From contig CAIRAW010000038.1 in NCBI GenBank assembly GCA_903876735.1, positions 1-64,000 of the forward strand: a stretch of DNA of 64,000 nt, read 5' to 3'. Shown here in pieces: positions 5,663 through 51,504 of this stretch. This DNA comes from an uncultured beta proteobacterium. Lineage in GTDB: Bacteria > Pseudomonadota > Gammaproteobacteria > Burkholderiales > Burkholderiaceae_C. Both the position numbers and the translations under genes were made by a program. The notes under the pieces were generated by a model that did not search any database, was not told the origin of the DNA, and saw only the letters and a program-made list of their open reading frames with translations. The stretch's first letter is position 1, and each line of letters opens with the position of its first letter.

Positions 5663-7390
5663 TCAATAGCCCAGCGCGAGCCCGGTATTGCGGCGCGGAT
5701 CGTTGGCGCCGTAGAAGCGATTGTTGGCCACCGGCTTGCCGCCAAGCGACGGCGCGCCAACCAGGATCGCCGCCAGATGACTGCCCGGCTGCGGCGCACC
5801 CAGTTTGTGCCCCATGTCGACCAGCATCTTGCGCGAATCAGGGCTCAGGCCAAAGGTATCGACGTTGGTCAGATCCGGCAACCATTGCTGATGAAAGCGC
5901 GGCGCATCAATCGCTTCCTGCACGTTCATGCCGTAGTCGATCACGTTCAGAATCGTGTGCGTCACGGCCGTGATAATGCGGCTGCCGCCCGGCGTTCCCA
6001 CCACCATGACCGGCTTGCCGTTCTGGCTGACGATGGTCGGGCTCATGGAACTCAGCGGCCGCTTGCCCGGGGCGATGGCATTGGCTTCGCCCTGCACCAG
6101 GCCGTAGATATTGGGCACGCCGACCTTGACGGTGAAGTCGTCCATCTCGTTGTTGAGCAGGACGCCAGTGCCGGCAGCAGTCACTTTGGCGCCGAACCAG
6201 TCGTTGAGCGTGTAGGTCACGGCCACGGCATTGCCATCCTTGTCGACAATCGAATAGTGCGTGGTGTTCATCCCTTCATGCGGCTCGACACCGGGCTTGA
6301 TGTCTTTCGACACGCCAGCCTTGGCCGGGTCGATGGCGGCGCGGATCTTGGCTGCGTAGCCCTTGTCAAGCAGGCGATCGAGCGGGTTCTTGACAAAGTC
6401 GGGGTCACCCAGGTAGCTGTTGCGGTCCACATAGGCGTGGCGCATCGCTTCGATCAGGTAGTGCACCGACTGCGCCGAGCGGAAGCCCAGGTCCTTGAGC
6501 GGATAGCCTTCGACGATATTGAGAACCTCGCAGATCACGACACCGCCCGAACTCGGCGGCGGCGCCGACACGATGTGATAGCCGCGGTAATCGCACTCCA
6601 CCGGCGCCAGCTCGCGCACGCTGTACTGGTCCAGATCAGCCTGCGTCAGCAGCCCCTTTCCGGCCACACTCGCAGCCACCAGCGCCTTGGCGACCGGTCC
6701 CTTGTAGAAACCATCAGCACCCTTGCTGCTGATCAGCTTGAGCGTTTTCGCGAGGTCCTTCTGCACCAGCTTATGACCCGCCAGCGGTAACTCACCCTTG
6801 TTCAGAAAGATGGCAGCCGACGGCGCGTCAGCGCGCAGATCAGCGCCTGCGCTCTGGAAGAAATCGGCATCGCCCTGCTGCAACACAAAGCCGCGCTCGG
6901 CGAGCTTGATCGCCGGCGCCATCAGCGCGGCGCGCGACAGTGTGCCGTACTTGGCGCGCGCGGTCTCGAAGCCGGCCACGGACCCCGGCACGGCGACGGC
7001 CAGATGACCCTTGGTGCTCAGGCCCTTGATGACGTTGCCGCTGGCGTCGAGGTACATGTTGGCGCTTGCGCCCAGGGGTGCTTTTTCGCGGAAATCAAGA
7101 AAAGTCTTGCGCCCGTCGGCCAGTTGCAAGGTCATGAAGCCGCCGCCACCCAGATTGCCAGCGGCCGGATACACAACGGCCAGCGCGTAGCCAACGGCCA
7201 CGGCCGCGTCAATGGCATTGCCACCTTTTTTCAGCACGTCAACACCGACCTGCGTTGCCAGATGCTGGGCCGTGACGACCATGCCGTGCTCGGCCGCCAC
7301 CGGCGCCACCGAGGCGGCCTGGCTGGTGCTGCAACAAAGGACGGCGACGCTGCCGAGCAGCGCCAGGCGCATGGGAAATTTTGGTTTCAT
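5663..7390 (-). CDS. ggt: Gamma-glutamyltransferase (periplasmic)
   Basis: 575 residues starting at an ATG with GGAG 7 bases upstream; longer upstream extensions lack a ribosome site. Residues 1-25 form a Sec signal peptide (KFPMRLALLGSVAVLCC...SQAA), so the enzyme is exported. The autoprocessing motif NTTHYSIVD has its nucleophilic Thr at about 376, and the LSSMSPTIV and GTPGGSRII segments in the small subunit bind the gamma-glutamyl group. It cleaves glutathione and gamma-glutamyl compounds in the periplasm. Length and motifs are complete, so it should be active. Confidence 0.95.
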   Translation of the reverse strand: MKPKFPMRLALLGSVAVLCCSTSQAASVAPVAAEHGMVVTAQHLATQVGVDVLKKGGNAIDAAVAVGYALAVVYPAAGNLGGGGFMTLQLADGRKTFLDFREKAPLGASANMYLDASGNVIKGLSTKGHLAVAVPGSVAGFETARAKYGTLSRAALMAPAIKLAERGFVLQQGDADFFQSAGADLRADAPSAAIFLNKGELPLAGHKLVQKDLAKTLKLISSKGADGFYKGPVAKALVAASVAGKGLLTQADLDQYSVRELAPVECDYRGYHIVSAPPPSSGGVVICEVLNIVEGYPLKDLGFRSAQSVHYLIEAMRHAYVDRNSYLGDPDFVKNPLDRLLDKGYAAKIRAAIDPAKAGVSKDIKPGVEPHEGMNTTHYSIVDKDGNAVAVTYTLNDWFGAKVTAAGTGVLLNNEMDDFTVKVGVPNIYGLVQGEANAIAPGKRPLSSMSPTIVSQNGKPVMVVGTPGGSRIITAVTHTILNVIDYGMNVQEAIDAPRFHQQWLPDLTNVDTFGLSPDSRKMLVDMGHKLGAPQPGSHLAAILVGAPSLGGKPVANNRFYGANDPRRNTGLALGY

Positions 7391-7483
7391 GGTGAGTCTC
7401 CTTGTAATGGGTTCAGGCAGCGACGCCGCATGGCATCGATCTCCCCGCCAATGTAGCAGGGACACGGGATCCGCGCAGGCAAA

Positions 7484-8989
7484 CTATGTTTTGTCATCGC
7501 TGGCCAGCGCCGCCGCATGCAGGGCCACCAGACGCGAGCGCTGCAGTTTGCCAGTCGCCGTCAGGGGCAAGGCGTCGACCCAATGCACCCAGTGCGGGCG
7601 CCGGTAGGTCGGCAGCGAAGCGATTGCATCCCGAACGCGCTGCTGCGCCAATTCCCCTCGCCCCGGCGCGGCGATGGCCAGCATTGACAAGGCGGTCAAA
7701 CCTTCGGGCGTGCGCACGCCAACGCAGGCCAGTTGCACAACGCTGTCACCCGCAGCATTGACAATCGCCTGTTCCACCCACAGCGTGCTGACCCAGCGCC
7801 CGCTGATCTTGAGCATGTCATCGATGCGCCCGGCAAATTCAAGCTGGTCATTGGCGCGGCGCAGGAACATGTCGCCTGGGCAGTACCAGCCGTCACGAAA
7901 GCCATCGGCCTGCGCCTGCGGCCGCTTCCAGTAGCCCAGCGCGACGGCGCTGCTGCGCAACCAGATGCGCTGTGGCCGATCCGGATCGGCATCGCTTGCG
8001 AAGCGCAGTTGCGTCTGCGGCGTGGTCTGCAACAGGCCGCTGTCGTCATCGCTGTAGAGCATCAGGCACAGGGTCTCGGAGGTGCCGTAGCCGCTGACAA
8101 TGGAGAGGCCAGTGGCCGCGCGCCAGCCCTGGCGCACGGCCACTGGCAGGCTCTCGCCGGCCGAGACAAAGTGCCGGATGCCGTGCCCGGCCAGTTGCGG
8201 TGCAATGCCGTCCTGCAGCATCTTGCTGTAGAGCGTGGGCACGCAAAACGCCAGGGTCGGCCGGTGCGCGCGCACCATCTCCAGCACGCGCTGCGGGTCC
8301 GGCCAGTGCCGATCCAGAATGACGGTAGCGCCAGCGCGCAGGCCCGCAAACAGGCTGTTGCCCAGCGCGTAGGCAAAGAACAGTTTGGAGCTGGCATAGA
8401 GACGGTCTGCCGCGCTCAGTTGCAGAATGCCGCGCGCAAATGAATCGGGCTGGCCAGCCGCGCGCTGCGCGTGCACAACCCCCTTGGAGACACCCGTGGT
8501 GCCGGAGGTGCCAATCCACAGCGCGGGCGCTTCTTCGTCCTGCAGCGCGTGCGCCATTTCCTGCGCAAGACTGAACTCGCGCGCCCAGTTCGAATCGTCA
8601 GTACCGCTGACCATCAGCGTCGGCGCCTGCGCCATGCCCGCCAGCAGTTGCGCCAGTGAGGTCACGCTGTCGGCTTCGCACCAGACATAGCGGACTTCGC
8701 TCTCCTGCAGAATCGGTGCGAGTTCGCTCGGTGACAGGCGCGGGTTGACGCCAATGGCCACGCCGCCGGCCCAGATCACACCCAGGTAGGCCAGCACCCA
8801 TTCAATGCTGTCGGGCGCCGTGATGATGACCCGGTCGCCCTGACGCAAACCGAGTCTGTGCCAGGCGCCGGCAGCGCGCCGGACCCGCTGGCGCAGCGCG
8901 TCATAGCTCAAGCGCTCGCTGCCGCATTCCAGCGCCGTAGCTCCCGGCGCACCGGCCTGCAACAGCGTCTGGGCCGCGTTCATGCGCAT
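7484..8989 (-). CDS. Benzoate-CoA-ligase-family acyl-CoA synthetase
   Basis: 501 residues of the ANL superfamily. Motif A3 is ALWIGTSGTTGVSKGVVHAQR (about 156-176), the A5 motif GYGTSETLC follows, then WYCPGDMF and GRIDDMLKISGRWVS (hinge), and PLTATGKLQRSRL carries the catalytic Lys. The arrangement FFAYALGNSLFAGLRAGAT is typical of the benzoate-CoA ligase subfamily rather than fatty acid ligases. It begins 9 bases after the stop of a TRAP solute-binding protein gene, so it is in an operon with the DctQMP importer and probably activates the imported aromatic or other organic acid to a CoA thioester. The specific substrate is not determined. Confidence 0.85.
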   Translation of the reverse strand: MRMNAAQTLLQAGAPGATALECGSERLSYDALRQRVRRAAGAWHRLGLRQGDRVIITAPDSIEWVLAYLGVIWAGGVAIGVNPRLSPSELAPILQESEVRYVWCEADSVTSLAQLLAGMAQAPTLMVSGTDDSNWAREFSLAQEMAHALQDEEAPALWIGTSGTTGVSKGVVHAQRAAGQPDSFARGILQLSAADRLYASSKLFFAYALGNSLFAGLRAGATVILDRHWPDPQRVLEMVRAHRPTLAFCVPTLYSKMLQDGIAPQLAGHGIRHFVSAGESLPVAVRQGWRAATGLSIVSGYGTSETLCLMLYSDDDSGLLQTTPQTQLRFASDADPDRPQRIWLRSSAVALGYWKRPQAQADGFRDGWYCPGDMFLRRANDQLEFAGRIDDMLKISGRWVSTLWVEQAIVNAAGDSVVQLACVGVRTPEGLTALSMLAIAAPGRGELAQQRVRDAIASLPTYRRPHWVHWVDALPLTATGKLQRSRLVALHAAALASDDKT

Positions 8990-8998
8990 CGTCGCGTC

Positions 8999-10036
8999 TT
9001 ACTTGTCGTACTGGTTCAGCAGCGCCTTGGCCGATTCAAGCAGTTGCTTGCCATCCGCGCCTTTGGCCGCCACATCCTTGAGCCAATCCTGCGCCACGCC
9101 TTCGGTTGCTTTTTCCCAGCGCTGAACTTCAGCGGCCGTGAGCACATTGACGACGTTGCCGCGATCGGTGGCGGACTTGCGTCCCGGCTCAATTGTGCTG
9201 TCCCAGATGCGGCCGGCCCAGGCTGATGCTTCAGCGCCGCTGTTGGCATCGATCACCTTTTTCAGGTCGGCTGGCAGGCTGTTGTACTTGGCCTCGTTCA
9301 TGGCGACGACGAAGATGGTGTTGGACATCTTGCGCTGGCCCGGCCCGGTCTCGGTATGAAACTTGGTCACCTCATGCACCTTGATGCCGGGCACAACTTC
9401 CCACGGCAGTGAGGCGCCATCAACCACACCCTTGGAGATGGCTTCCTGCACCTGCGGCGCCGGCATCTGGATCGGTGTGGCGCCCAGCGCTGTGAGCATG
9501 CGCGTGCCGATTCGTGTGGGGGCGCGTACCTTCAGGCCCTTGATGTCTTCCAGCGTTTTGACCGACTTGTTGGCGAAGTGGAGTTCGGCGCCGTCATGCA
9601 CATGCGCCATCAAAATCTTGGTGCCCTTGAATTCATCCAGTGAGTTCTTCTGCAAGTACTCCCAAAAAGCGCGGCTGCCGCCTTCGGCGCTCTTGATCAT
9701 GAAGGGCAACTCAAACACCTCGGACTTGGCGAAACGCCCGGCCTGGTAGGTGGGGACGGTCCAGACGATGTCGGCCACACCGTCCTTGGCCTGGTCGAAC
9801 AGTTGCGGCGGCGTGCCGCCAAGTTGCATGGCCGGATAGATCTGGCACTTGATGCGGTTGTTGGACTCCTTGCCCAGCTTCTCGCACCAGGGACCGAGCA
9901 GCAGCTTTTGCGAGGTCGCGTTCGGCGCCAGGAAATGGTGGACCTTGAGTGTCACGTCCTGCGCCCAGACGCCCCCTGCGCCAAGGGCCAGCGCAGTGGC
10001 GGCCAACACGGGGGTCAATGTCTTGCGGATCTGCAT
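8999..10036 (-). CDS. TRAP transporter solute-binding protein (DctP family)
   Basis: 345 residues; the start is the ATG at 10036 because GAGGAG lies 7 bases upstream (an upstream in-frame ATG would contain that site). Signal peptide MQIRKTLTPVLAATALALGAGGVWAQ (split here by cleavage near residue 26) shows export to the periplasm. The DctP fold is seen in LKVHHFLAPNA, VRAPTRIGTRMLTALGA (with the Arg that clamps the carboxylate) and GVVDGASLPWEVVPG. It captures an organic acid for the adjacent DctM/DctQ permease. It lies between the permease and an acyl-CoA ligase, supporting import and activation of the same compound. Confidence 0.93.
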   Translation of the reverse strand: MQIRKTLTPVLAATALALGAGGVWAQDVTLKVHHFLAPNATSQKLLLGPWCEKLGKESNNRIKCQIYPAMQLGGTPPQLFDQAKDGVADIVWTVPTYQAGRFAKSEVFELPFMIKSAEGGSRAFWEYLQKNSLDEFKGTKILMAHVHDGAELHFANKSVKTLEDIKGLKVRAPTRIGTRMLTALGATPIQMPAPQVQEAISKGVVDGASLPWEVVPGIKVHEVTKFHTETGPGQRKMSNTIFVVAMNEAKYNSLPADLKKVIDANSGAEASAWAGRIWDSTIEPGRKSATDRGNVVNVLTAAEVQRWEKATEGVAQDWLKDVAAKGADGKQLLESAKALLNQYDK

Positions 10037-10082
10037 GTCGAATCTCCTCATTGTTTTGGTTGGGAAACAGAGTGAACAGGAA

Positions 10083-11414
10083 TCAGGCGCCGAAGGTTCG
10101 CACCAGGTACAGCGAGATCACCGGAAAGAACACCAGCAGCGTGATGCGGATGAAGTCCGAGATCAGGAACGGAATCACGCCCTTGAAGGTCTCCATCAAC
10201 GGCACGTCAACGGCGAGCCGGTTGATGACGTAGACGTTCATGCCGACCGGCGGGTGCACCAGGCCGATCTCGACCACCATCAACGCCAGGATGCCAAACC
10301 AGATCGACTTGTCGACCTGTGCCAGGCCAAAGAAATCGAGGCCCATGATCATCGGGTAGAAGATCGGGATCGTCAGCAGGATCATGGCCAGCGAATCCAT
10401 GACGCAGCCCAGCAATATGTAGATCAGCAGGATCATGGCCATCACCAGCAGCGGCGACATTCCGCTGTTCTTGACCCACTGTGCGAGCTCGACCGGCATC
10501 TGCGAGATCGCCAGCGCCGTGTTCATCATGTCGGCGCCCAGCAGCACCAGAAAGATCATGGCCGTCGCCGTCGCGGTACCCAGCAGGGTCTTGCGAATTT
10601 CTTCCATGCCCATGTTGCCCGACAGCAGCGCCAGGATGCCGCAGGAGGCCGCGCCAATCGATGCGGCCTCGGTCGGATTGGCCCAGCCGCCGTAGATGCC
10701 GACGATCACGACCACAAAAACCAGCAGCACCGGCAGCACTTCAATCAAGCAACGCAGGCGCTGCGGCCAGGGCACGCGCGGCCCGGCCGGGCCGGCTTTC
10801 GGATCGAGCGTGACCATGATCTGCACCACCAGCATGTAACCGAGCATGGCGATGATGCCCGGCAGCACGGCGGCCATGAACAGCTTGCCGATCGACTCCT
10901 GCGTCAGGATCGCGTAGATCACCAAGGGCACCGACGGCGGAATCATGATGCCCAGCGTGCCGCCCGCGGCCAGGGCGCCGGTGGCGAGCGAACCGGAATA
11001 GCCATAGCGCCGCAACTCGGGCAGCGCGACCTGGCCCATGGTGGCGGCCGTTGCCAGCGACGAGCCGCAGATCGCGCCAAAGCCGGCACAGGCGCCGATC
11101 GCCGCCATGGCAATGCCACCCCTGCGGTGGCCGATGAAGGCGCTGACAAACCGAAACAGCGATCGACTCAGGCCCCCGTGCGTGGCGAACTGGCCCATCA
11201 ACAGAAACAGCGGAATCACAATCAGGTCGTAGTTCGACAGGCGGGCGTAGGCGAGGTTCTTGAGCGAGTTCAGCAGCACAGCGCTCTGGCCGCCGTTGAG
11301 GTAGAGGTAGCCGCCGGCACCGGCGATGAACATGGCAACGCCAATCGGAACGCGCAGCACCAGCATCGTCAGCAGGAAGCCGAAGATCAGGAAACCGAGT
11401 TGCATTCCGGTCAT
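10083..11414 (-). CDS. TRAP transporter large permease (DctM)
   Basis: 443 residues, about 12-13 membrane segments, of the DctM family which carries the sodium-driven transport path. The ATG at 11414 overlaps the DctQ stop (ATGA), fixing the start; the longer upstream frame is only the DctQ coding region read in another frame. Family motifs are visible in GSSLATAATMGQVALPEL and GGTLGIMIPPSVPLVIYAI, and in the C-terminal half VHPPVGMNVYVINRL. It acts in the inner membrane with DctQ and the periplasmic DctP encoded just downstream. Confidence 0.93.
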   Translation of the reverse strand: MTGMQLGFLIFGFLLTMLVLRVPIGVAMFIAGAGGYLYLNGGQSAVLLNSLKNLAYARLSNYDLIVIPLFLLMGQFATHGGLSRSLFRFVSAFIGHRRGGIAMAAIGACAGFGAICGSSLATAATMGQVALPELRRYGYSGSLATGALAAGGTLGIMIPPSVPLVIYAILTQESIGKLFMAAVLPGIIAMLGYMLVVQIMVTLDPKAGPAGPRVPWPQRLRCLIEVLPVLLVFVVVIVGIYGGWANPTEAASIGAASCGILALLSGNMGMEEIRKTLLGTATATAMIFLVLLGADMMNTALAISQMPVELAQWVKNSGMSPLLVMAMILLIYILLGCVMDSLAMILLTIPIFYPMIMGLDFFGLAQVDKSIWFGILALMVVEIGLVHPPVGMNVYVINRLAVDVPLMETFKGVIPFLISDFIRITLLVFFPVISLYLVRTFGA

Positions 11415-43054: not shown

Positions 43055-43191
43055 GGAAAACCCTGAGATACTTCACCCAAGTTAGATTTTCAGAAACGCA
43101 TCGTTTCTAAAGGTTGTCTCCTCGGGTCCTTTCGTAACCTACAGGTTCAGGGATCCCTTAAGGGCTGGTTGCAAAACCGGCCCTTTTTTTT
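43055..43191 (+). ncRNA. Possible small RNA downstream of phaP
   Basis: No gene is seen from 42987 to 43190. The stretch has a perfect hairpin AGAAACG-CAT-CGTTTCT (43092-43108), a pyrimidine motif TCTCCTC (43117-43123) that could pair with ribosome sites, an AACCT-AC-AGGTT hairpin (43136-43147), and ends in a strong terminator. It could also be just the long 3' end of the phaP mRNA. The 5' end is not defined. Confidence 0.35.
43161..43191 (+). terminator. Rho-independent terminator
   Basis: AGGGCTGGTT (43161-43170) pairs with AACCGGCCCT (43175-43184) around GCAA, followed by a run of eight T. It ends phaP or the putative small RNA and abuts the transposon target duplication. Confidence 0.85.
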
Positions 43192-43192
43192 A

Positions 43193-43200
43193 TCTGGCTA
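43193..43200. repeat. Target site duplication, left copy
   Basis: TCTGGCTA immediately precedes the transposon; the same 8 bases occur at 49806-49813 immediately after it. Confidence 0.9.
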
Positions 43201-43222
43201 GGGTGTTAATAAGCTGATGGCC
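43201..43222 (+). repeat. Left terminal inverted repeat
   Basis: A 22-base sequence beginning GGGTGTTAATAAGC and ending GGCC is repeated perfectly in inverted orientation at 49784-49805. Confidence 0.95.
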
Positions 43223-43305
43223 AAAACCCCGAAGAATCAACGAGTTGCGTGATTTTCTGACGGCCAAAAAAGAAAATTAGGGGTGTCCCGAATCACCTTT
43301 AATTA

Positions 43306-43413
43306 TCGTGAGTTAACTCACGAAATAACTAGGCATCGCGCTGCATATCGTGAGAACGCTCACGTTAAAGCCAAAACTCAAACAACTCTTGAATATCGTG
43401 AGTGCAATCACGA
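43306..43413 (+). promoter_or_regulatory. Three palindromic operators before the RHH-like gene
   Basis: Copies are TCGTGAGTTAACTCACGA (43306-43323, perfect), TCGTGAGAACGCTCACGT (43348-43365) and TCGTGAGTGCAATCACGA (43396-43413). Start-to-start distances are 42 and 48 bp. The third ends 9 bases before the ATG at 43423 where a ribosome site would be, so a protein bound there would block transcription or translation. Confidence 0.75.
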
Positions 43414-43422
43414 TAATCTGGC

Positions 43423-43881
43423 ATGGGCAGAAAAATCTCATCGCTGGATTCGCAGTACTTCGAGCAAGCCGTCGCGTATCTACGACGCGCACTGCAACGG
43501 AATAGTGCAGAACTCTTCGTAAGACCGGCGCATGCTGGGACGGCATTGGCGCAAATTGAAACGCTTTTGCGGACCGTCAAGTCAGCCGAAGCGCCCGACG
43601 TATTTCGCTCGTGGTTGGACCTTCACCTGGCCCCTGCCGGCAGAGGGAAGTTGCTTGCGGCCCTGCGCAGGAAGCGGGCTGATACAAAGCCTGGCCGGCC
43701 AAAGCGGCATGTCATAAGCCTGGCACCAGAGGCCTACAAGGAACTGGTACGCCTTCAAAAGAAAGTTGGCGGCGCTCCCCTGCCAAAGCTACTGGAAAGC
43801 CTAGCCGCCGTAGCCCTTTTGGACAAGAAGCTTCAGGACAAACTGTTCAAGCTGAGCGTGGCCATCGCGACAAATTTGTAG
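43423..43881 (+). CDS. Ribbon-helix-helix-like DNA-binding protein (transposon passenger)
   Basis: 152 residues. I do not recognise the N-terminal half (AVAYLRRALQRNSAELFV, DVFRSWLDLHLAPAGRGKLL), but the C-terminal part RHVISLAPEAYKELVRLQKKVGG then PLPKLLESLAAVALL (about 92-130) fits a ribbon-helix-helix pattern: a strand with alternating residues and two helices around a G turn. The basic RRKRADTKPGRPKRH linker precedes it. No clear ribosome site is present; three palindromes lie directly upstream, so autorepression is likely (inference). Leftmost gene of the transposon. Confidence 0.55.
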   Translation: MGRKISSLDSQYFEQAVAYLRRALQRNSAELFVRPAHAGTALAQIETLLRTVKSAEAPDVFRSWLDLHLAPAGRGKLLAALRRKRADTKPGRPKRHVISLAPEAYKELVRLQKKVGGAPLPKLLESLAAVALLDKKLQDKLFKLSVAIATNL

Positions 43882-43896
43882 CTCCCGACCAACCCT

Positions 43897-44973
43897 ATGC
43901 CTTTTAGCGCTATATCTCCCGAAGGGCCAGTAACCTTGATTGGTGTTACGCCAGAGTCGGTTGAGTCCATGCGCTCGCGCAACCGCAAAGAGAAGGTCTA
44001 TACAGCCAAATGCTGCGGCGCACCTCTTTCAATTCGGGTCGCCGAAGGCAAGGCACCGCACTTCGTCCACCAAGTTACCCCCGAGAACTGCGACGCGGAC
44101 CGGTGTGAAACACCCGAACATCGACGGCTGAAGCATCTGATTGCAGAAACTGCCATACGCACATACGAGTTTGACGTCGAGACAGAGGCAAGGGAAAACG
44201 ACCCCGTTACTGGCCGCGCACTATGGCAAGCGGACGTTCTGGTTCTGATGAAGCGTGCAGCTGTCGCGTTTGAAGTCCAGCTATCTAACGCCGATTACGA
44301 GCATATGCGCGTCCGCCAGGCGCGCTACAAAGCTTCCGGTGTTAGAGGCTTGTGGCTGGTCCGAACCAAGAAAGGCTTCCCGCAATCGAAGGAACTTCCG
44401 GTATTTACATTGGAGAACCAAAAATTCGGAGACTGGGTAAACATCTCAACTCGCTGGGACTTGTCCGACATCTGGCGGCGAACGGAAGAAGCAAACTTAA
44501 TTGAGTTGCCGGACTTCGTTGAGGCAGTGCTGAATAAGCGGCTCAAGTGGGCGCCATTTGTAGGTAAGCCCGATACCCCACTCGACGCTGACGTTGGGTA
44601 CGTGCAAGTTGGCACCTGCGGCGGGTGCTCCCGAAAGATTGTGGTTGTCGATGAGTCGCGCCTATGCATAGCCTCCGAGTTCGGCTATCCCGACTATCTG
44701 TGTGTTGGGGGCCTCGGGCGGACGCGCAGAACCAAGTGGCACAGCAGAATAGCGGACGCAGTCTGGCAGAAGGTGGCCGGTGACGTGGACGTTACATTCC
44801 GCAGTGTCTCAAATGCCTGTTGCTGGTGTCACGCACCGATTGTGAGCGGTACCCCGACAACTCACGCGGATGGCTATCTGTCGACACAGCTAATGCTGCG
44901 GGACCTGCCCGCACCGGGCTTCGGGACCATTGAGTGGAGCTGGCTGCATCGGTGGTTTGTGATGGGGGAGTAA
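43897..44973 (+). CDS. CoiA-like nuclease with zinc-ribbon (transposon passenger)
   Basis: 358 residues. The N-terminal part has CC (39-40) and HFVH (55-58), then ETPEHRRLKHLIAE (71-84) and RALWQADVLVLMKRAAVAFEVQLS (107-130) followed by RQARYKASGVRGLWLVRT; this is the competence protein CoiA-like nuclease pattern, with D113 and E126-V-Q128 as the likely PD-(D/E)XK residues. The C-terminal third adds CGGC (241-244) and CCWC (308-311), a probable zinc site. CoiA proteins work in DNA recombination during transformation; here a role in transposon or DNA defence is possible but unproven. It starts 15 bp after the RHH-like gene. Confidence 0.65.
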   Translation: MPFSAISPEGPVTLIGVTPESVESMRSRNRKEKVYTAKCCGAPLSIRVAEGKAPHFVHQVTPENCDADRCETPEHRRLKHLIAETAIRTYEFDVETEARENDPVTGRALWQADVLVLMKRAAVAFEVQLSNADYEHMRVRQARYKASGVRGLWLVRTKKGFPQSKELPVFTLENQKFGDWVNISTRWDLSDIWRRTEEANLIELPDFVEAVLNKRLKWAPFVGKPDTPLDADVGYVQVGTCGGCSRKIVVVDESRLCIASEFGYPDYLCVGGLGRTRRTKWHSRIADAVWQKVAGDVDVTFRSVSNACCWCHAPIVSGTPTTHADGYLSTQLMLRDLPAPGFGTIEWSWLHRWFVMGE

Positions 44974-45129
44974 CCCCAGCATCAGCAAACGGGAGCTGGT
45001 GTCAAAGTATGCCGAGTTCCAGGTTCATCGCAACGAATAGCGGTATGGGCTCGAAAACCAGTCGTCAACAAGTACCTATGCCTGCTTGACAATCATTAGC
45101 CAATGGGGAGCCTAGAATGGCACAAACAA

Positions 45130-45146
45130 CCCTGCCTACGGCAGGG
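45130..45146 (+). promoter_or_regulatory. GC-rich hairpin upstream of the truncated frames
   Basis: CCCTGCC-TAC-GGCAGGG forms a perfect 7-bp stem with a 3-base loop. No T run follows, so it is not a standard terminator; it may mark the leader of the frame at 45182. From 44974 to 45181 I see no gene. Confidence 0.4.
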
Positions 45147-45181
45147 CGGTTATTGGCAATGTCGAGCATCAAGGGGCAGCC

Positions 45182-45433
45182 GTGAAGACCACAATGAAAG
45201 TTCTGGGAGCCGCAGGAATAGCGTTGCTTCTTTTGTACGCATTTGTTATCAAATTCTCAACAGTAGAGTCCCGCTTTCAGTGTCCTGGCGAAATACCCGC
45301 GCTGGGCCGGCAGTGTCTGGGACCTGGTTGCCCGAGCGTTGACGCGCACCCTGTACCGCGCGGACCAAGCACCGGCATCAAGCAAGCCAGACCGGCGCTG
45401 CGCCTACGCCACCCGTCTGTGCGCAGTCATTGA
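45182..45433 (+). pseudogene. Truncated membrane-anchored protein fragment
   Basis: The frame starts with MKTTMKVLGAAGIALLLLYAF, one clear N-terminal membrane segment, followed by STVESRFQCPGEI. After about residue 38 the translation becomes a Pro/Arg-rich stretch that overlaps the next frame and looks like out-of-frame reading. I read it as the N-terminus of a membrane-anchored protein of unknown function whose remainder was lost near 45295. It could still be made as an 83-residue protein. Confidence 0.35.
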
Positions 45434-45833
45434 ACGGTCCACTGGTGACACGCGTGGGGTCGAGCTCGCCACTGTCGAGATTTCGCAGGTGGGCAACCAG
45501 CGCGGCGTCTACACGGCCATCTTCAAGGAAGACATCGTCGGCGACCGCTCGGCCAGCTTCACCTACGGGCTCAAGTCGCTGGTGGCTCCAGACCTCCTGC
45601 TGCGCGCCATCTGCTGGGCCTACTTCGACAAGGACGTTCTGGGCGGGCGTCCGCACCTCATCTTGCCGGCCTCCGTCAAAATCAACGGCGTCGACCTGTT
45701 TGATGCGAATGCATTGCCCGAGCCGGCCAAGACCGGGTTTTGTCGTCATCGCGGCGGCAACTTCCCCGTGACAGAAGCACCCGCGCAGATGGCCAGGGCG
45801 GAAGACTACGTTGCCTTCCTGATGAGGGGCTAA
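45267..45833 (+). pseudogene. Unknown protein, probably missing its N-terminus
   Basis: A frame open from 45267 has no good start; the first candidates are TTG at 45339 or other weak codons. Residues such as WAGSVWDLVARALTRTLYRAD, RRCAYATRLCAVIE, LLLRAICWAYFDKDVLGG and HLILPASVKINGVDLFDAN look like normal folded coding sequence with coding-like composition, so translation in this frame is real or recently was. It ends 3 bases before the transposase start. I do not recognise the family. The overlap with the preceding frame suggests a deletion junction about 45290-45300. Confidence 0.4.
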
Positions 45834-45836
45834 TCG

Positions 45837-47075
45837 ATGTCTGCAACTCTTACCCTGTCAGACGCAGCAGAGCCGGAAAAGCGCAAACTGTTCCCGATTC
45901 GCAATCGCACAGGCACTGCCGCCTTTCATCTGTCGACCGATGCCGTCGGCTTCGGTCAGTCCGACCTCGAAAAGCTGACCGAGAAGCAAGCTGTGCTGTT
46001 CATGGCCGAGGCTCAGTGGGGCTCTGCCCAAGAGATGCCTTGCGTGCATTGCGGCTCAATCGATACGCACTACTGGACGCCCAAGGAAATGCGCTGGAAA
46101 TGCAAGTGCTGCGGCAAGCGGTTCTCTGTCACGTCCAACACCGTCTTTGCTGACCACAAGCTGCCACTGTCCAAAATTTTGAAAATTGCCTTCTCGTGGG
46201 CCAATGGCGCAGCAGGCGTGCCTGCACTCAAACTGCGGCGCGACTGGAACGTTGCCTATGCCACCGTGTTTACGCTTGCCCACAAGCTGCGTGAGGGCCT
46301 CACACGAGGCTTTGACAAAGGTCCGCTGGCTGGCGTGCACGAGATGGACGGGATGGACGTCAACGGACGGCGATACAAGGAAAAGCGCAACAAGCCACTG
46401 GGCAGTCGCTCGGCCGGCGCGCCGAAGATTCCGGCGGAGCTGCTCAAGCCTGCGGACGGCTCCGAGCTGATGGGCCCGGCCAAACCGCCAAAGTTCGGCA
46501 AGACTGCCAAGCAGCCAGCGGACCGGCGCCTGCTCCTGGTCATGTGCCAGCGCGGTGTGAGCGAAGGCAAGGGGACGTCAGCAACGCGCGTCGCCATCGG
46601 CTTGAGCGAGTCCACCAAGACGGTGACCGCCATGGCCACACAGCATGCCTCCGCCGAGTCAACCATCATGAGCGATGAAGACCCCTCGTATGCCAGCTTT
46701 CGCGACCTGTTTGCCGACCACCGGACCATCAACCACTCCGTCGCTTACAGCGATGGCAAAGGCACCAGCAACAACCAGGCTGAGAGCTTCAATGCCCGCA
46801 TGCGGCGCACCGCGGAGGGCACCTATCTTTCAATCTCAAACAAGTACCTTAAGGACTATGCCTGCGAGGTTGCTTGGAGAACCGACACACGCAAGATGTC
46901 GACGCGCAACAAGCTCAGGCACGTCATCCGCAATGCCTTGTCGGTTGGGATGTCGCTGTGGTGGCGCGGTTACACGCACGGGCATCACCGCGAAGAAGAA
47001 CTGTTGATTGAAGGGGCGCAGCTGGCGCTGGGGCGTGGTCGGCAGCCGGGGTGGAAGGCGAAAGTTCCACGGTGA
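45837..47075 (+). CDS. IS1595-family transposase (ISXO2-like)
   Basis: 412 residues. A zinc ribbon (C69-x2-C72 ... C89-x2-C92; MPCVHCGS and WKCKCCGKRF) at the N-terminus is followed by PLSKILKIAFSWANGAAGVPALKL and the DDE-type core: E169/D171 in HEMDGMDV, D280/D282 in SDEDPSY and E316 in NNQAESFNARMRR. This Zn_ribbon_IS1595 plus DDE_Tnp_ISXO2 order is diagnostic. It cuts and pastes the element bounded by the 22-bp inverted repeats. Full length, so probably active. Confidence 0.9.
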   Translation: MSATLTLSDAAEPEKRKLFPIRNRTGTAAFHLSTDAVGFGQSDLEKLTEKQAVLFMAEAQWGSAQEMPCVHCGSIDTHYWTPKEMRWKCKCCGKRFSVTSNTVFADHKLPLSKILKIAFSWANGAAGVPALKLRRDWNVAYATVFTLAHKLREGLTRGFDKGPLAGVHEMDGMDVNGRRYKEKRNKPLGSRSAGAPKIPAELLKPADGSELMGPAKPPKFGKTAKQPADRRLLLVMCQRGVSEGKGTSATRVAIGLSESTKTVTAMATQHASAESTIMSDEDPSYASFRDLFADHRTINHSVAYSDGKGTSNNQAESFNARMRRTAEGTYLSISNKYLKDYACEVAWRTDTRKMSTRNKLRHVIRNALSVGMSLWWRGYTHGHHREEELLIEGAQLALGRGRQPGWKAKVPR

Positions 47076-47126
47076 GTTGCGAGTCGCTAAACTGTCCATC
47101 CACGCCACTTATGGTATAAGGCTCCT

Positions 47127-47426
47127 ATGACAACGACTCACTTCTCGCGATTCATGCCCGCACCCCCGGTACGGCGAGGTGTTGGCGGGTCTGCACGTCC
47201 CGATAATGCAGTTGGCCAACCAGATGCGGCTGTCCATGAGACCAAGGTCAAGGTACTTTTTGAACTTGCGGAACTTGGCATGACTTACGTTGAGGACGAC
47301 AACGCCAAGCGATACTTCATTGACGGAGACTCAGAACTTACCGTTAAGGCTGTTAAGGGCCAAGTCTTAATGGCCAAAGTGAATGGGAACGGATACGTTC
47401 TGTCAGCCCGCAAAACCCCTCGATAA
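47127..47426 (+). CDS. Small unknown protein (transposon passenger)
   Basis: 99 residues, not recognised. The first 35 are Pro/Gly/Arg-rich and probably disordered; the rest (TKVKVLFELAELGMTYVEDDNAKRYFIDGDSELTVK then VKGQVLMAKVNGNGYVLS) looks like a small alpha/beta domain. A TATGGTATAAG promoter-like stretch precedes the ATG. It lies 9 bp before the papain-like gene, suggesting a pair. No signal peptide. Confidence 0.5.
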   Translation: MTTTHFSRFMPAPPVRRGVGGSARPDNAVGQPDAAVHETKVKVLFELAELGMTYVEDDNAKRYFIDGDSELTVKAVKGQVLMAKVNGNGYVLSARKTPR

Positions 47427-47435
47427 AGCGTTGGT

Positions 47436-48086
47436 GTGCCTAAATCCAGCGTAGTACTCCCTGCTCTAAACGGGGCAACGTCGATTGCACATGGCACCGA
47501 GAAGCGGCCTACTACATGGCAAATCGGGCATAAGGCGGTTCCGAGCTTCTCCGATATGCAGCCTGGAGATTTGGTTCTGGTAGCAACTGACAAATCGCCT
47601 ATTTGTACAGCGATACAAAACATTCAGTCCTCCCTGAAGTCGGGGTCGCCCACCCACGGAGACCCCAAATGGACGCATGTAGGTATTTACGTTGCCGACG
47701 GAATGATGCTGGAATCAGTTCCAAGGCTAGGTGTGAGGTACTGTACTGTTGAGAGATACGCAATAACCCGGGACATCCACGTTCGCAGGCTCACCCAGAA
47801 AGCAACTGCGGTGTCAGCCCTTCAGGGTGCCAGAGTTGTGCGTGTCGCTGCTGAGTTCTTTGAGAAGAAATACTCCATTGCCAGCATCGCAGTCCATCTC
47901 TTAAATCACTCAAAAATATCAAGTCCATCAGCCTTCTTTTGTAGCACCTTCGTAGCGGTGGTTTATGCAAAGGCATTGAAGGTTCTGCTTGACTCGGATG
48001 CCTCTCATAGGCCGTTACTGCCTGCAACATTGGCCAAGCACCCGTCATTTGTGGACGTTCCTATTGCTTGGCGTTCGCCTGCCTAA
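47436..48086 (+). CDS. YiiX/NlpC-type papain-fold protein (transposon passenger)
   Basis: 216 residues with a GTG start. The order MQPGDLVLVATDK (about 41-53), WTHVGIYVADGMMLESV (about 79-95, catalytic His) and FFCSTFVAVVYAKAL (about 167-181, catalytic Cys) is that of permuted papain-like YiiX/NlpC-P60 proteins, which act on peptide or lipid amide/ester bonds. There is no signal peptide, so it is cytosolic or injected. Role in a transposon is unclear. It converges with the next gene 14 bp away. Confidence 0.6.
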   Translation: MPKSSVVLPALNGATSIAHGTEKRPTTWQIGHKAVPSFSDMQPGDLVLVATDKSPICTAIQNIQSSLKSGSPTHGDPKWTHVGIYVADGMMLESVPRLGVRYCTVERYAITRDIHVRRLTQKATAVSALQGARVVRVAAEFFEKKYSIASIAVHLLNHSKISSPSAFFCSTFVAVVYAKALKVLLDSDASHRPLLPATLAKHPSFVDVPIAWRSPA

Positions 48087-48099
48087 CGCTACTCCCGCT

Positions 48100-48435
48100 T
48101 CAAAGTGCAGCAAGGTATCTCGCCAGTAGCAGCCGTGCTCCCAACCCCTTGCGACCAAACCCCGCCCGCCACCCGTCAGCACTCCCAATCCCCGCCGGGT
48201 CAATGCCAGCATCGAACTGCCTGATGGTTGCGTAGAGCGCGTCCCTGTCTGCGACCAGCTTTAACTGGCGCGCGGCCAGCCTCACCTGCACCTCCGGAGC
48301 CATTCCTCGCATAGACCCCGTGGCCCCGTGCAACAGGCCGTCCAGGAACGCCAACTCCCCGTGCACGTTCGCGACCATCTCCGCCAGCTTGGTGAGCGTT
48401 GTCTGCGTGCGGGTGCGCGTCATCGTCAACGCCAT
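48100..48435 (-). CDS. Small unknown protein downstream of the coiled-coil gene
   Basis: 111 residues from the ATG at 48435, which overlaps the end of the upstream gene by 10 bp. The sequence MALTMTRTRTQTTLTKLAEMVANVHGEL and LRLAARQLKLVADRDALYATIRQFD suggests a helical protein; the C-terminus is basic. I do not recognise it. Coupled translation with the upstream coiled-coil gene suggests a shared function. Confidence 0.5.
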   Translation of the reverse strand: MALTMTRTRTQTTLTKLAEMVANVHGELAFLDGLLHGATGSMRGMAPEVQVRLAARQLKLVADRDALYATIRQFDAGIDPAGIGSADGWRAGFGRKGLGARLLLARYLAAL

Positions 48436-49067
48436 GCCTGAGCCCCTTCCAGGGAGTGTTCTGCCGCCCGCTCCCGCAACGCATCCAGCGAAGCCGCGGG
48501 TGCCTTCCAGCGCCACCGCCCATGCGACCCAAGCTGCCTGTCGTGCAGGGGTTCGATAAGCCCCCGCAAGTGCAACCCGCGCAGCGAACCGCTGACTGAC
48601 TTGTTGAAGCTGCGGCGGTCCTTGGACAACGGGAACGTGATGCCGAATTGCCTTGCTGCCAAATTCATCAGCACCGTTGTGGTCAGTGGCTCGGGGGCGG
48701 CAGCGCTCAGCACCTCCTGGACGAATGCGCCCAGCGCGCCGCGCCTGCCGTACCGACCGGCCCACGCCTCGACAATGCCGCCGGCCGTGGGTTCCACTCG
48801 GGCATGGGCCAACGCCAGCGTTGCATCCAAGGCGTCCATCGATGCCTGCGCGCGAGACTGTGCACATTGAGCGCGCTCCGTCAAGAACTGCGCCTTGGCC
48901 AGTTGCTGTTCCAGACGCGCCTGCTTTGCCCGCAACCCTGCCTGCGTCACTTCGGCCTTGGACACTTCACCCGCCAGCGCCGCGCGCTCATTGAGCAACC
49001 ACTTGATGTCAGGAGGAGTTCGAGTCCGCAGGGTCGGGACTTCCGGCTCTGGCGCGTGGCGCTTCAT
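48426..49067 (-). CDS. Coiled-coil protein of unknown function, intact copy
   Basis: 213 residues. It starts with a Pro-rich segment and RTRTPPDIKWLLNERAALAGEVSK, continues as a coiled coil (about 30-85: AEVTQAGLRAKQARLEQQLAKAQ), then a globular C-terminal part with AGGIVEAWAGRYGRRGALGAFV, FPLSKDRRSFNKSVSGSLRGL and RGLIEPLHDRQLGSHGRWRWKAP. It is a clear paralogue of the frame at 49009-49728 just upstream, so it arose by duplication. Function unknown; the second half resembles a winged-helix-like fold (low confidence). Confidence 0.6.
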   Translation of the reverse strand: MKRHAPEPEVPTLRTRTPPDIKWLLNERAALAGEVSKAEVTQAGLRAKQARLEQQLAKAQFLTERAQCAQSRAQASMDALDATLALAHARVEPTAGGIVEAWAGRYGRRGALGAFVQEVLSAAAPEPLTTTVLMNLAARQFGITFPLSKDRRSFNKSVSGSLRGLHLRGLIEPLHDRQLGSHGRWRWKAPAASLDALRERAAEHSLEGAQAWR

Positions 49068-49728
49068 CAGCTGCCGCCTTCGCGATTGCCGCAGCTCTTA
49101 CGGCAAGGTCCGCCAATGTGGCTGGTTGCTTCCAGCGCCAAACCCCCGGAGTTCCAGACGCTGCGCCATGCAGAGGTTCGACCAACCTCTCCTGAACCAG
49201 GCGATAGAGCGCTGTCTTTATCGACTTCTTCAGGCTTGTGCGACTCGATGGGAACGGGAGCGAAAGCTGAAAATGCGCGGCGGCTTGGTTGATGAGCTGT
49301 CTCGTGTCCACCGTGGCCGGCGAGGCATCCTTCAGCGTTTGCGAGACGAACTGCGTGAGAGCGCCACGCTTTCCATACTTCCCGGCCCAGTCCCTCACGA
49401 CACCGCCGGCTCACGGGTCGGCCTGGTTGTACGCAAGCCCGATAGTTGTGTCCAAGGCGTCCAGGATAGCCTGGTGAGCCTCCCGCGCTTGTGCGCATCG
49501 CAGTATCAGCGCGGTCACGCCATCCATCTTGCGTTGAAGCGCAGCCAGCCTTGGCGCCAAAGTGCTTTGGTGAAAGTAGGTCCTGCTGATTTTGCCGGCA
49601 ATAGCGGCGCGCTCGTTGAGCAGCCACTTCAAGTCGGGTGGCGTGCGAGTGCGAACGGAGGGAGATTTGGGCACATTGACAGGGCATGGAGTTGACGATA
49701 CCGCTGTACAGCGACCAGTTGTGGCCAA
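49009..49728 (-). pseudogene. Coiled-coil protein paralogue interrupted by an in-frame TGA
   Basis: Read straight through, this is 240 codons that align along their whole length with the intact copy at 48426-49067: RTRTPPDLKWLLNERAAIAGK, a coiled coil, AYNQADP, then TGA at 49411-49413, then AGGVVRDWAGKYGKRGAL and RLVEPLHGAASGTPGVWRWKQP. The paralogue has Thr (ACG) where TGA stands. Both halves are otherwise open and well conserved, so it is a recent nonsense mutation, two split genes (the second could restart at a GTG, 49396-49398), or readthrough. The N-terminal start is a weak TTG. Confidence 0.6.
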
Positions 49729-49783
49729 AAAGCCGCGAAAACGGGCGAAAACCAGGGGAGTTTGACCATGGGGCCTATTCTTG

Positions 49784-49805
49784 GGCCATCAGCTTATTAA
49801 CACCC
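49784..49805 (-). repeat. Right terminal inverted repeat
   Basis: Perfect inverted copy of the 22-bp left end (43201-43222). Its terminal bases now supply the last codons (Gly, Cys) and stop of the adjacent MFS gene. Confidence 0.95.
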
Positions 49806-51032
49806 TCTGGCTAATTTTGCTCGCGCCGGGACACGCGCTTCACGGATCGGCAAATGCAGCAAGGCCGCGCCGACCGCCAGCACGATGTCAACATACCAGA
49901 CGACGTTGTAAGTGCCGGTTGCCTCCAGCACGCGACCGCCAAGCCAGGCTCCGAGAAAACCGCCGATCTGGTGCGTCAGCATCACGACGCCGAACAGCGT
50001 CGCCATGTTGGCTGTGCCAAAGAATTTGGCCACCAGGCCCGCCGTCGGCGGCACCGTAGACAAAAACGTCAGCCCCATGACCGCCGCAAAAGCCAGCACG
50101 ACGCCCTCGCTCTTGGGCGCCAACAGGAACAGCAGTACCGCCAGTGCCCGGGTCGCGTAAACCAGCGACAGCAGAGACTTCATGCGCCAGCGTCCCACCG
50201 CCCAGCCCATGGCAATGCTGCCAACGATGTTGAACAGCCCCAGCACGGCCAGTGACCAGGCACCGTACTGCAGCGGCAGGCCGCACATGGCGACCACGCC
50301 CGGAAGATGCGTGCCCAGAAAAGCGACGTGAAAGCCGCAAACAAAAAAGCCACCGGCCAGCATCAGGTAGCTCGGATTGCGCAAGGCTTGGCGCACCGCT
50401 GCCAGCGCGCCCAACGGTGCCTGACTCGGCGCCAGGGGATGGCCGGCCTGGCCGCGCAGCAGGTAGGCCGCCGGCAGCGCCAGCAACACGATCAGCGCCA
50501 TCACCTGCATGGCGTTGGCCCAGCCAAAGGCCAGCAAGAGCGCGCCGGCAATCGGCGCCATCAGGAACTGACCAAACGAGCCGCCGGCGTTGACGATGCC
50601 GGTGGCCAGGCCGCGCATGCCAGCCGGAATCATGCGCGTGGTAGCCGCCATCAACACCGCCGGACCCGCCATACCGGCGCCACCGGCCGCCAGCAGGCCA
50701 ATGGAAAAAATCAGACCTGCGGTCGTGCTCATCCAGGGCGTAATGAAGGTCCCCAGCGCCACCAGCAAGGCCCCGACCAGCAGCACGCGCCCGGCACCCA
50801 CCCGGTCCGCCATGGCACCGGCAAAAGGTTGCGTCAAACCCCAGCATAACTGGCCAAAAGCAAAGGCCAGGCTGATGTTGCCGACCCCGATTCCGGTAGC
50901 GGTATTCAAGGGGCTCAGGAACAGGCCCATGGTTTGGCGCGTGCCCATGGTCACGGCGAAGGTGCCTGCCGCCGCCAGCAACACCAGCCAGGCGGCGACT
51001 GCCGGCTTGCTGTCAAGCATTGGCTTATTCAT
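49797..51032 (-). CDS. MFS transporter with transposon-altered C-terminus
   Basis: 411 residues from the ATG at 51032, 12 membrane spans typical of the major facilitator superfamily (for example GRQTMGLFLSPLNTATGI, VGAGRVLLVGALLVALGTF motif A-like region). Substrate unknown. The final codons GGG TGT TAA come from the transposon end; before insertion the frame ended AGA TAA, so only Gly-Cys were added and the protein should still work. The start overlaps the MarR gene end by 8 bp, so the exporter is probably controlled by that regulator. Confidence 0.88.
   Translation of the reverse strand: MNKPMLDSKPAVAAWLVLLAAAGTFAVTMGTRQTMGLFLSPLNTATGIGVGNISLAFAFGQLCWGLTQPFAGAMADRVGAGRVLLVGALLVALGTFITPWMSTTAGLIFSIGLLAAGGAGMAGPAVLMAATTRMIPAGMRGLATGIVNAGGSFGQFLMAPIAGALLLAFGWANAMQVMALIVLLALPAAYLLRGQAGHPLAPSQAPLGALAAVRQALRNPSYLMLAGGFFVCGFHVAFLGTHLPGVVAMCGLPLQYGAWSLAVLGLFNIVGSIAMGWAVGRWRMKSLLSLVYATRALAVLLFLLAPKSEGVVLAFAAVMGLTFLSTVPPTAGLVAKFFGTANMATLFGVVMLTHQIGGFLGAWLGGRVLEATGTYNVVWYVDIVLAVGAALLHLPIREARVPARAKLARGC
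49806..49813. repeat. Target site duplication, right copy
   Basis: TCTGGCTA, identical to 43193-43200; lies inside the 3' end of the MFS gene. Confidence 0.9.
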
Positions 51033-51504
51033 CGGCAGCTCCGGCGACAGGCGCAAGCAGTTCCAGCGACTCGTCAATCAGCGCGTGCAGCGTCAGCAGA
51101 CGCGGCACACCGAGCAGCTTGTTCAGGCTGGTCTGCGCCGCCTTCCAGTGGCGCTGCGCGTCCTGACGCTTGTCGCGGCCGCTGTCCGTGATGCGAATCA
51201 GGCGGCTGCGCCCATCGGCACCACTGGCCAGTTCGACCCAACCTTCTGCCTGCAGCGGCTTGAGGTTGCGCGTCAGCGTGGAGGCTTCCATCTTCATAGC
51301 CCTTGCCAGCGCGCCGGGTTGGATTGGCCCGAGCTTGAGCACATGGGACAGCAGCGAGTACTGGGTCGTGCGCAGGCCAACCCGCGCCAGTTCGGCGTCG
51401 TAGCGTTGCGTGATGCGCCGCGTCAATTGCCGCAGCTTGAGGTTGGTACAACCCTGCAGCTTCACAGCGGCCGGTTCATTGCTTGCAAGTGGGTTGGCAG
51501 TCAT
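51025..51504 (-). CDS. MarR-family transcriptional regulator
   Basis: 159 residues from the ATG at 51504 (an ATG at 51513 is an alternative). The winged HTH is seen in GLRTTQYSLLSHVLKLGPIQPGALARAMKMEASTLTRNLKPLQAEGWVEL (about 46-95) with the wing ADGRSRLIRITDSGR. It likely represses the co-directional MFS exporter with which it overlaps, and perhaps the divergent thioesterase. A palindrome TTGTATATGCAA lies in the 49-bp divergent region. Confidence 0.88.
   Translation of the reverse strand: MTANPLASNEPAAVKLQGCTNLKLRQLTRRITQRYDAELARVGLRTTQYSLLSHVLKLGPIQPGALARAMKMEASTLTRNLKPLQAEGWVELASGADGRSRLIRITDSGRDKRQDAQRHWKAAQTSLNKLLGVPRLLTLHALIDESLELLAPVAGAADE

Follow-up and report, generated by a model that had tools for sequence, protein, structure and literature searches.

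A probable reduced member of an IS1595-type transposon group with defence-type cargo and sites behind intrinsic terminators

Transposons of the IS1595 family encode transposases with an N-terminal zinc ribbon of four cysteines (Cys4) and a set of DDE residues, and they duplicate 8 bp of target DNA, a rule that takes in tISCpe8 and MTnSag1/tISSag10. Both of these elements combine an IS1595 transposase and terminal inverted repeats with passenger genes (PMC5704250). Here we describe an element with the same traits in a stretch of 64,000 nucleotides, ‘the window’, from an uncultured beta proteobacterium (assembly GCA_903876735.1, contig CAIRAW010000038.1, positions 1–64,000, forward strand). Very likely it belongs, in shortened form but with its ends intact, to a group of IS1595-type transposons with defence-type cargo that insert behind intrinsic terminators. 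The transposase gene, both ends, the 8-bp duplication, the fact that the element recurs as a unit, the existence of empty sites, a shared backbone and the position at terminators can all be read from the DNA itself. The group differs from tISCpe8 and MTnSag1/tISSag10 in being larger, and in having several cargo genes, a LexA-like gene and other backbone genes, cargo of the defence type, and insertion behind terminators.

Tn7, like the group described here, has accessory proteins beside its transposase. It, too, inserts just downstream of a gene, at attTn7 (PMC2918618), but it reads one conserved glmS sequence, whereas the genes here are varied and have the terminator in common. Group IIC introns insert shortly downstream of intrinsic terminators (PMC3240598, citing Robart et al. 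2007), and for them, too, the proposed benefit is that genes are spared; they are retroelements, however, while the present elements have a DDE transposase, inverted repeats and an 8-bp duplication. TnGBS/ISLre2-type Mutator elements, which target sigma-A promoters (PMC3942029), are alike in having a DDE transposase and in approaching a transcription signal in one orientation and at a fixed distance, and unlike in that the signal is a promoter rather than a terminator and the transposase is of another family. We found no report of a DDE transposon that targets terminators in the literature searched, which took in few subscription journals and, in part, excerpts.

The element is 6,605 bp long (43201–49805). 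Its terminal inverted repeats, GGGTGTTAATAAGCTGATGGCC at 43201–43222 (+ strand) and its counterpart at 49784–49805 (−), are identical at 22/22 bp, and a repeat finder stretches them to 26 bp at 96%. The 8-bp duplication, TCTGGCTA, occupies both flanks (43193–43200 and 49806–49813). These were the only two ends matched in a scan of the whole window that tolerated up to 6 mismatches, and no second copy of the element was found in its own genome at an E threshold of 0.001. The transposase (412 aa; 45837–47075, +) passes Pfam DDE_Tnp_IS1595 (PF12762; 95.6 bits, cut-off 27) and NCBIfam IS1595 (NF033547; 97.7, cut-off 75); the NCBIfam model of the IS1/IS1595 zinc domain scores below its cut-off (11.7 vs 28). 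Cys69, Cys72, Cys89 and Cys92, together with Asp171, Asp280 and Glu316, are invariant in 23/23 aligned transposases. The window copy thus has each of the IS1595 traits tested, namely the family models, the Cys4 and DDE residues and the 8-bp duplication. An initial annotation, made from the sequence without database searches, had reported the perfect repeats, the duplication and a full-length zinc-ribbon DDE transposase of IS1595 type, and the repeat finder, the end scan, the curated models and the elements of other genomes bear it out.

In a collection that has a single genome for each species, a scan turned up 11 loci, with transposase identity (best segment) of 57–69% in ten and 34% in one. 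Nine of the 11 record titles name either Proteobacteria or genera and groups belonging, in our view, to the Burkholderiales. The other two are a delta proteobacterium and a Caldilineaceae metagenome-assembled genome, titles that may reflect spread, or misbinning, beyond one family. When those 11 genomes were searched for the end pattern, and two-ended elements with exact 8-bp duplications were kept, five with a transposase emerged: Hydrogenophaga G107 (11.8 kb, including 1,748 N), Comamonadaceae G104 (23.1 kb), Caenimonas G103 (18.6 kb), Rhodoferax G108 (19.8 kb) and proteobacterium G100 (16.0 kb). Two lacked one, of 1.08 kb in G109 and 1.99 kb in G001, from the window's genus. The 1.08-kb element (L041, G109 contig 250) carries one 269-aa open reading frame (ORF) between ends like those in the window, with a perfect 8-bp duplication, and sits at a terminator. 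Of 399 genomes of G107's family, 11 were matched by a transposase profile, G107 among them, and when the search started from the window it again matched 11/399, the window's own genome included; the shared matches fell at the same places, which suggests that the two genomes belong to one family. Fetched stretches yielded four more two-ended elements (G638a, 5.1 kb; G598, 12.2 kb; G565, 9.5 kb; and, at a locus of the species scan, G106, 16.5 kb), and a looser end rule four distant ones (G662a, 12.4 kb; G736, 5.6 kb; G005c, 3.5 kb; G052, 14.5 kb); the remaining fetched transposase stretches held no convincing two-ended element. Two were added later (G1714, 14.5 kb; G1742, 9.9 kb), from genus samples in which 4/72 and 6/67 genomes matched. 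Ends with exact duplications were thus present in 8/8 elements of the first set, then in four, in four under the looser rule, and in two. It follows that the ends and duplication in the window are not a matter of chance, and the element recurs, as had been proposed, as a unit with passengers. A class sample of 369 genomes gave no match beyond the window's own, and phages and viral contigs gave none.

The target rule is the strongest step of our account. One script was run on all 16 two-ended elements and, as control, on host DNA of 11 of the records at positions drawn at random. A stem-loop and T-tract lie beside the duplication in 14/16 elements, against 63/6,600 random positions. In those 14 the stem ends 1–7 nt before the duplication and, by eye, the GC-rich stem core lies 6–9 nt before its start. 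In the window, the left end follows the intrinsic terminator of an upstream phasin-type gene (43160–43192, +; 11-pair stem, loop GCAA, T-tract), which is the target site. Counted per end, single ends included, terminators are present at 16/21 left and 2/20 right ends (one-sided control, 59/11,000), and the left end faces the terminator in 12 of the 13 oriented two-ended elements that have one (two-sided p 0.003). The later G1714 and G1742 agree (2/2: left end at a terminator, right end not), and in G1671 a right-side end has no terminator, as expected. The upstream genes are presumably those for phasin (window; similar at G053 and L031), GroEL, a porin, binding proteins and acetyl-CoA synthetase, types that hint at strong terminators.

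Alternatively, an ordinary IS1595 transposon might insert at random, and the terminator pattern be a survivor bias, insertions into genes and operons having been lost and the harmless ones being those behind terminators. Survivors of a large element should indeed be intergenic, and phasin-type terminators account for about five of the sites, so that the insertions are partly non-independent. We regard this as unlikely, since survival leaves both the narrow 6–9 nt spacing and the orientation unexplained. Moreover, only 57/8,130 control positions (0.7%) left intergenic by a crude gene caller, which leaves just 5.9% of positions so, have a terminator; and among 19 other IS1595-like loci scanned, the five candidate end pairs, one of them with a perfect repeat, gave 0/5 at a terminator.

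Read in the direction of the transposase, members of the group have a common order: left end, cargo, LexA-like gene, a gene of ~100 aa (cl8), one of ~235 aa (cl2), the transposase, a second cargo bay, winged-helix genes (cl0) and right end. Among the 16 two-ended elements, 14 of which have a transposase, cl0 occurs in 15, cl2 in 10, and the LexA-like gene and cl8 in 8 each; G1714 and G1742 have all four. Upstream of the transposase, a LexA-like and a ~100-aa gene are usual without being universal, and neither was found in the window copy. Its cl2 is a 5′-truncated remnant (45279–45833, +; homology begins near 45279, ORF 45339–45833) missing about the first 53–58 residues. Its winged-helix genes are two tandem copies: an intact inner one (cl0, 213 aa; 48426–49067, −) and an outer one split by a single in-frame stop (49009–49728, −). 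Beside them lies a short, end-linked backbone gene of ~110 aa (48100–48438, −; homology 48151–48435). In the predicted model of the inner copy, a helix of 69 residues leads into a winged helix (predicted local distance difference test 86.5, predicted TM-score 0.47), and its Foldseek matches are weak (best E 0.013), many of them winged-helix regulators. What had been annotated as a ‘coiled-coil pair’ within the cargo is better described as tandem copies of this long-helix, winged-helix protein plus the short third gene, all of them backbone genes or remnants, as is the ORF just before the transposase. Judged by its sequence, the window copy is the reduced form of a transposon whose group usually carries a LexA-like repressor; its ends, transposase and truncated cl2 still link it to that group. 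The overall picture first drawn, of an IS1595 unit with passengers that recurs and has empty sites, stands; it overlooked the backbone, the reduced state, and the insertion at terminators in mostly one orientation.

The LexA-like gene is present in 9/10 close relatives, the exception being L029 (G107), and in G1714 and G1742. Its product matches Peptidase_S24 and LexA/UmuD structures, and conserves Ala-Gly, Ser and Lys (8/8 aligned), residues whose roles we assume to be those of a LexA-like protein. A LexA-type box, CTGT-N8-ACAG, occurs near the gene start exactly in 6/12 cases and with one mismatch in 5/12 (expected, 0.08 per tested stretch), with no such box near the start in G598. There is also a palindrome CGAA-N6-TTCG, exact in 8/12 and within one mismatch in 4, that of G638a being placed elsewhere (expected, 0.15). 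LexA-type boxes are rare before cl8 (one one-mismatch match among 12), and in the window element an exact LexA box is absent. The LexA-like gene may be controlled by host LexA and also by itself. In L022, L025, L030 and L031, TCTAAA/TTTAGA-like boxes seem, by eye, to be repeated before the transposition operon, upstream of the ~100-aa gene.

Empty sites, which the initial annotation had thought worth seeking in close relatives, were found. Among phasin-type loci of the genus, of which the 29 best-scoring places were read, both window flanks are adjacent, 9–23 bp apart, in five (L080, L082, L083, L094 and L098). In assembly G001, contig C248 matches the joined flanks of the C37 element plus one copy of the duplication at 241/241 bases, so that filled and empty sites occur together. 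That the window copy is defunct, its parts brought together by drift and with no functional link between cargo and ends, is quite improbable: its backbone genes are broken or lost, to be sure, but its ends and duplication are perfect, its transposase keeps all invariant residues, relatives have empty sites, and a sister element has a filled/empty pair.

The role of the window's cargo is the weakest step of the account. A left-end gene, cl13 (152 aa; 43423–43881, +), precedes that for a CoiA-type nuclease (PF06054, 358 aa; 43897–44973, +), a putative defence effector, and beyond the transposase lies a permuted papain-like protein (Pfam Peptidase_C92, 216 aa; 47436–48086, +). Both the CoiA-type and the C92 domain exceed Pfam cut-offs, in agreement with the annotation, and Asp113, Glu126 and seven cysteines of the nuclease are invariant in 23 aligned sequences. 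PADLOC models gave no match to these two proteins or to cl13 up to E 1, and cl13 had none in Pfam and NCBIfam searches. The look of its sequence and its putative operators suggest that cl13, annotated as a ribbon-helix-helix-like regulator, could be an autoregulator of that kind. It occurs in 4/16 two-ended elements, each time as the first gene inside the left end, the homologues being in G108, G565 and G598. Three exact CGTGA-N6-TCACG palindromes, putative operators 1 to 3, lie 5′ of it in the window (43307–43322, 43349–43364 and 43397–43412, all +). At one mismatch or fewer the window holds nine, a number reached in 0/100 shuffles. G108 has two exact copies, and N5 variants precede cl13 in G565 (exact) and G598 (one mismatch). 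The nuclease is probably held in check by the three palindromes and cl13, which together head the cargo operon. Annotated as possibly for ‘defence or DNA uptake/repair’, the cargo fits defence; that it serves DNA uptake or competence instead is the least probable of the alternatives, the one pointer to it being the Pfam name CoiA.

On the account we prefer, the transposase would join both ends to an 8-bp staggered cut that begins 6–9 nt past the GC-rich stem core of the terminator, roughly at the end of the transcript, with the left end mostly towards the terminator. Insertion there would spare host genes and limit read-through into the element. In most members a self-cleaving LexA-like repressor, whose own promoter has LexA boxes, would couple expression to DNA damage, and the cargo would protect the host. 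The window copy no longer has this repressor or the ~100-aa gene, and its ~235-aa gene has lost its start. Since the distant G662a and G052 lie at terminators and no ~100-aa or ~235-aa gene can be recognised in them, target selection is more likely to rest with the transposase or the winged-helix end protein. More tentatively, the family might read transcription termination as such, the transpososome docking on the hairpin of the terminator or on the polymerase as it terminates and so landing 3′ of strongly expressed genes, with the element's own LexA switching it on at DNA damage and defence systems thereby spreading into safe, insulated sites; we consider this possible rather than likely. 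If the account is true, defence genes have a DNA transposon as their dedicated vehicle, with a landing rule that spares genes, intrinsic terminators join the list of DDE transposase targets, such transposition is tied to the SOS response, and a tool for inserting DNA behind terminators may be at hand.

Several observations weigh against this account. G736 and G005c, of the distant branch, have no terminator at their sites, and in G103 the terminator lies to the right. These make up three of the five left-end misses; the others are G109, whose orientation is arbitrary and whose terminator is at the other side, and G101, where a hairpin is visible but the T-tract is too poor and the contig starts 41 bases outside. 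Unoriented ends are at terminators in 2/5 cases and not in 3/5, and in G1756 the end beside the transposase is at a terminator, yet on the transposase's 3′ side. Besides the phasin-type sites, G104 and G105 share the same gene and a near-identical backbone, and L026 and L027, both counted in the LexA-box tally, are near-identical. The filled/empty pair in G001 might reflect a mixture of strains within the assembly. Defence-type cargo is seen in group members, an observation without a matched control for enrichment. Finally, the window copy, with two damaged backbone genes and without the usual repressor, may not be fully competent.

Some minor features remain. A 99-aa ORF between the transposase and the papain-like gene (47127–47426, +) has no family match above cut-off in Pfam or NCBIfam. 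Some 100 bp inward from the left end of the G052 element (L074; 4741 and 4843) there is a further end, of another subtype (GGGTTTTACTACGC...), which likewise follows a terminator, possibly by stacking of elements. In L047 (G110; 6835–11095), a distant-type transposase gene adjoins another end, accompanied by winged-helix genes and a further transposase fragment, an apparent tandem accretion. Contig C2 of G398 has two identical, outward-facing, end-like sequences (2 mismatches) at 2148 and 14346, which could reflect a circular plasmid or chance. In the window, a convergent transporter ORF, presumably of the MFS type (49797–51077, −), now has its 3′ end within the element: its final codons consist of the duplication and the right inverted repeat, the latter supplying the stop codon.
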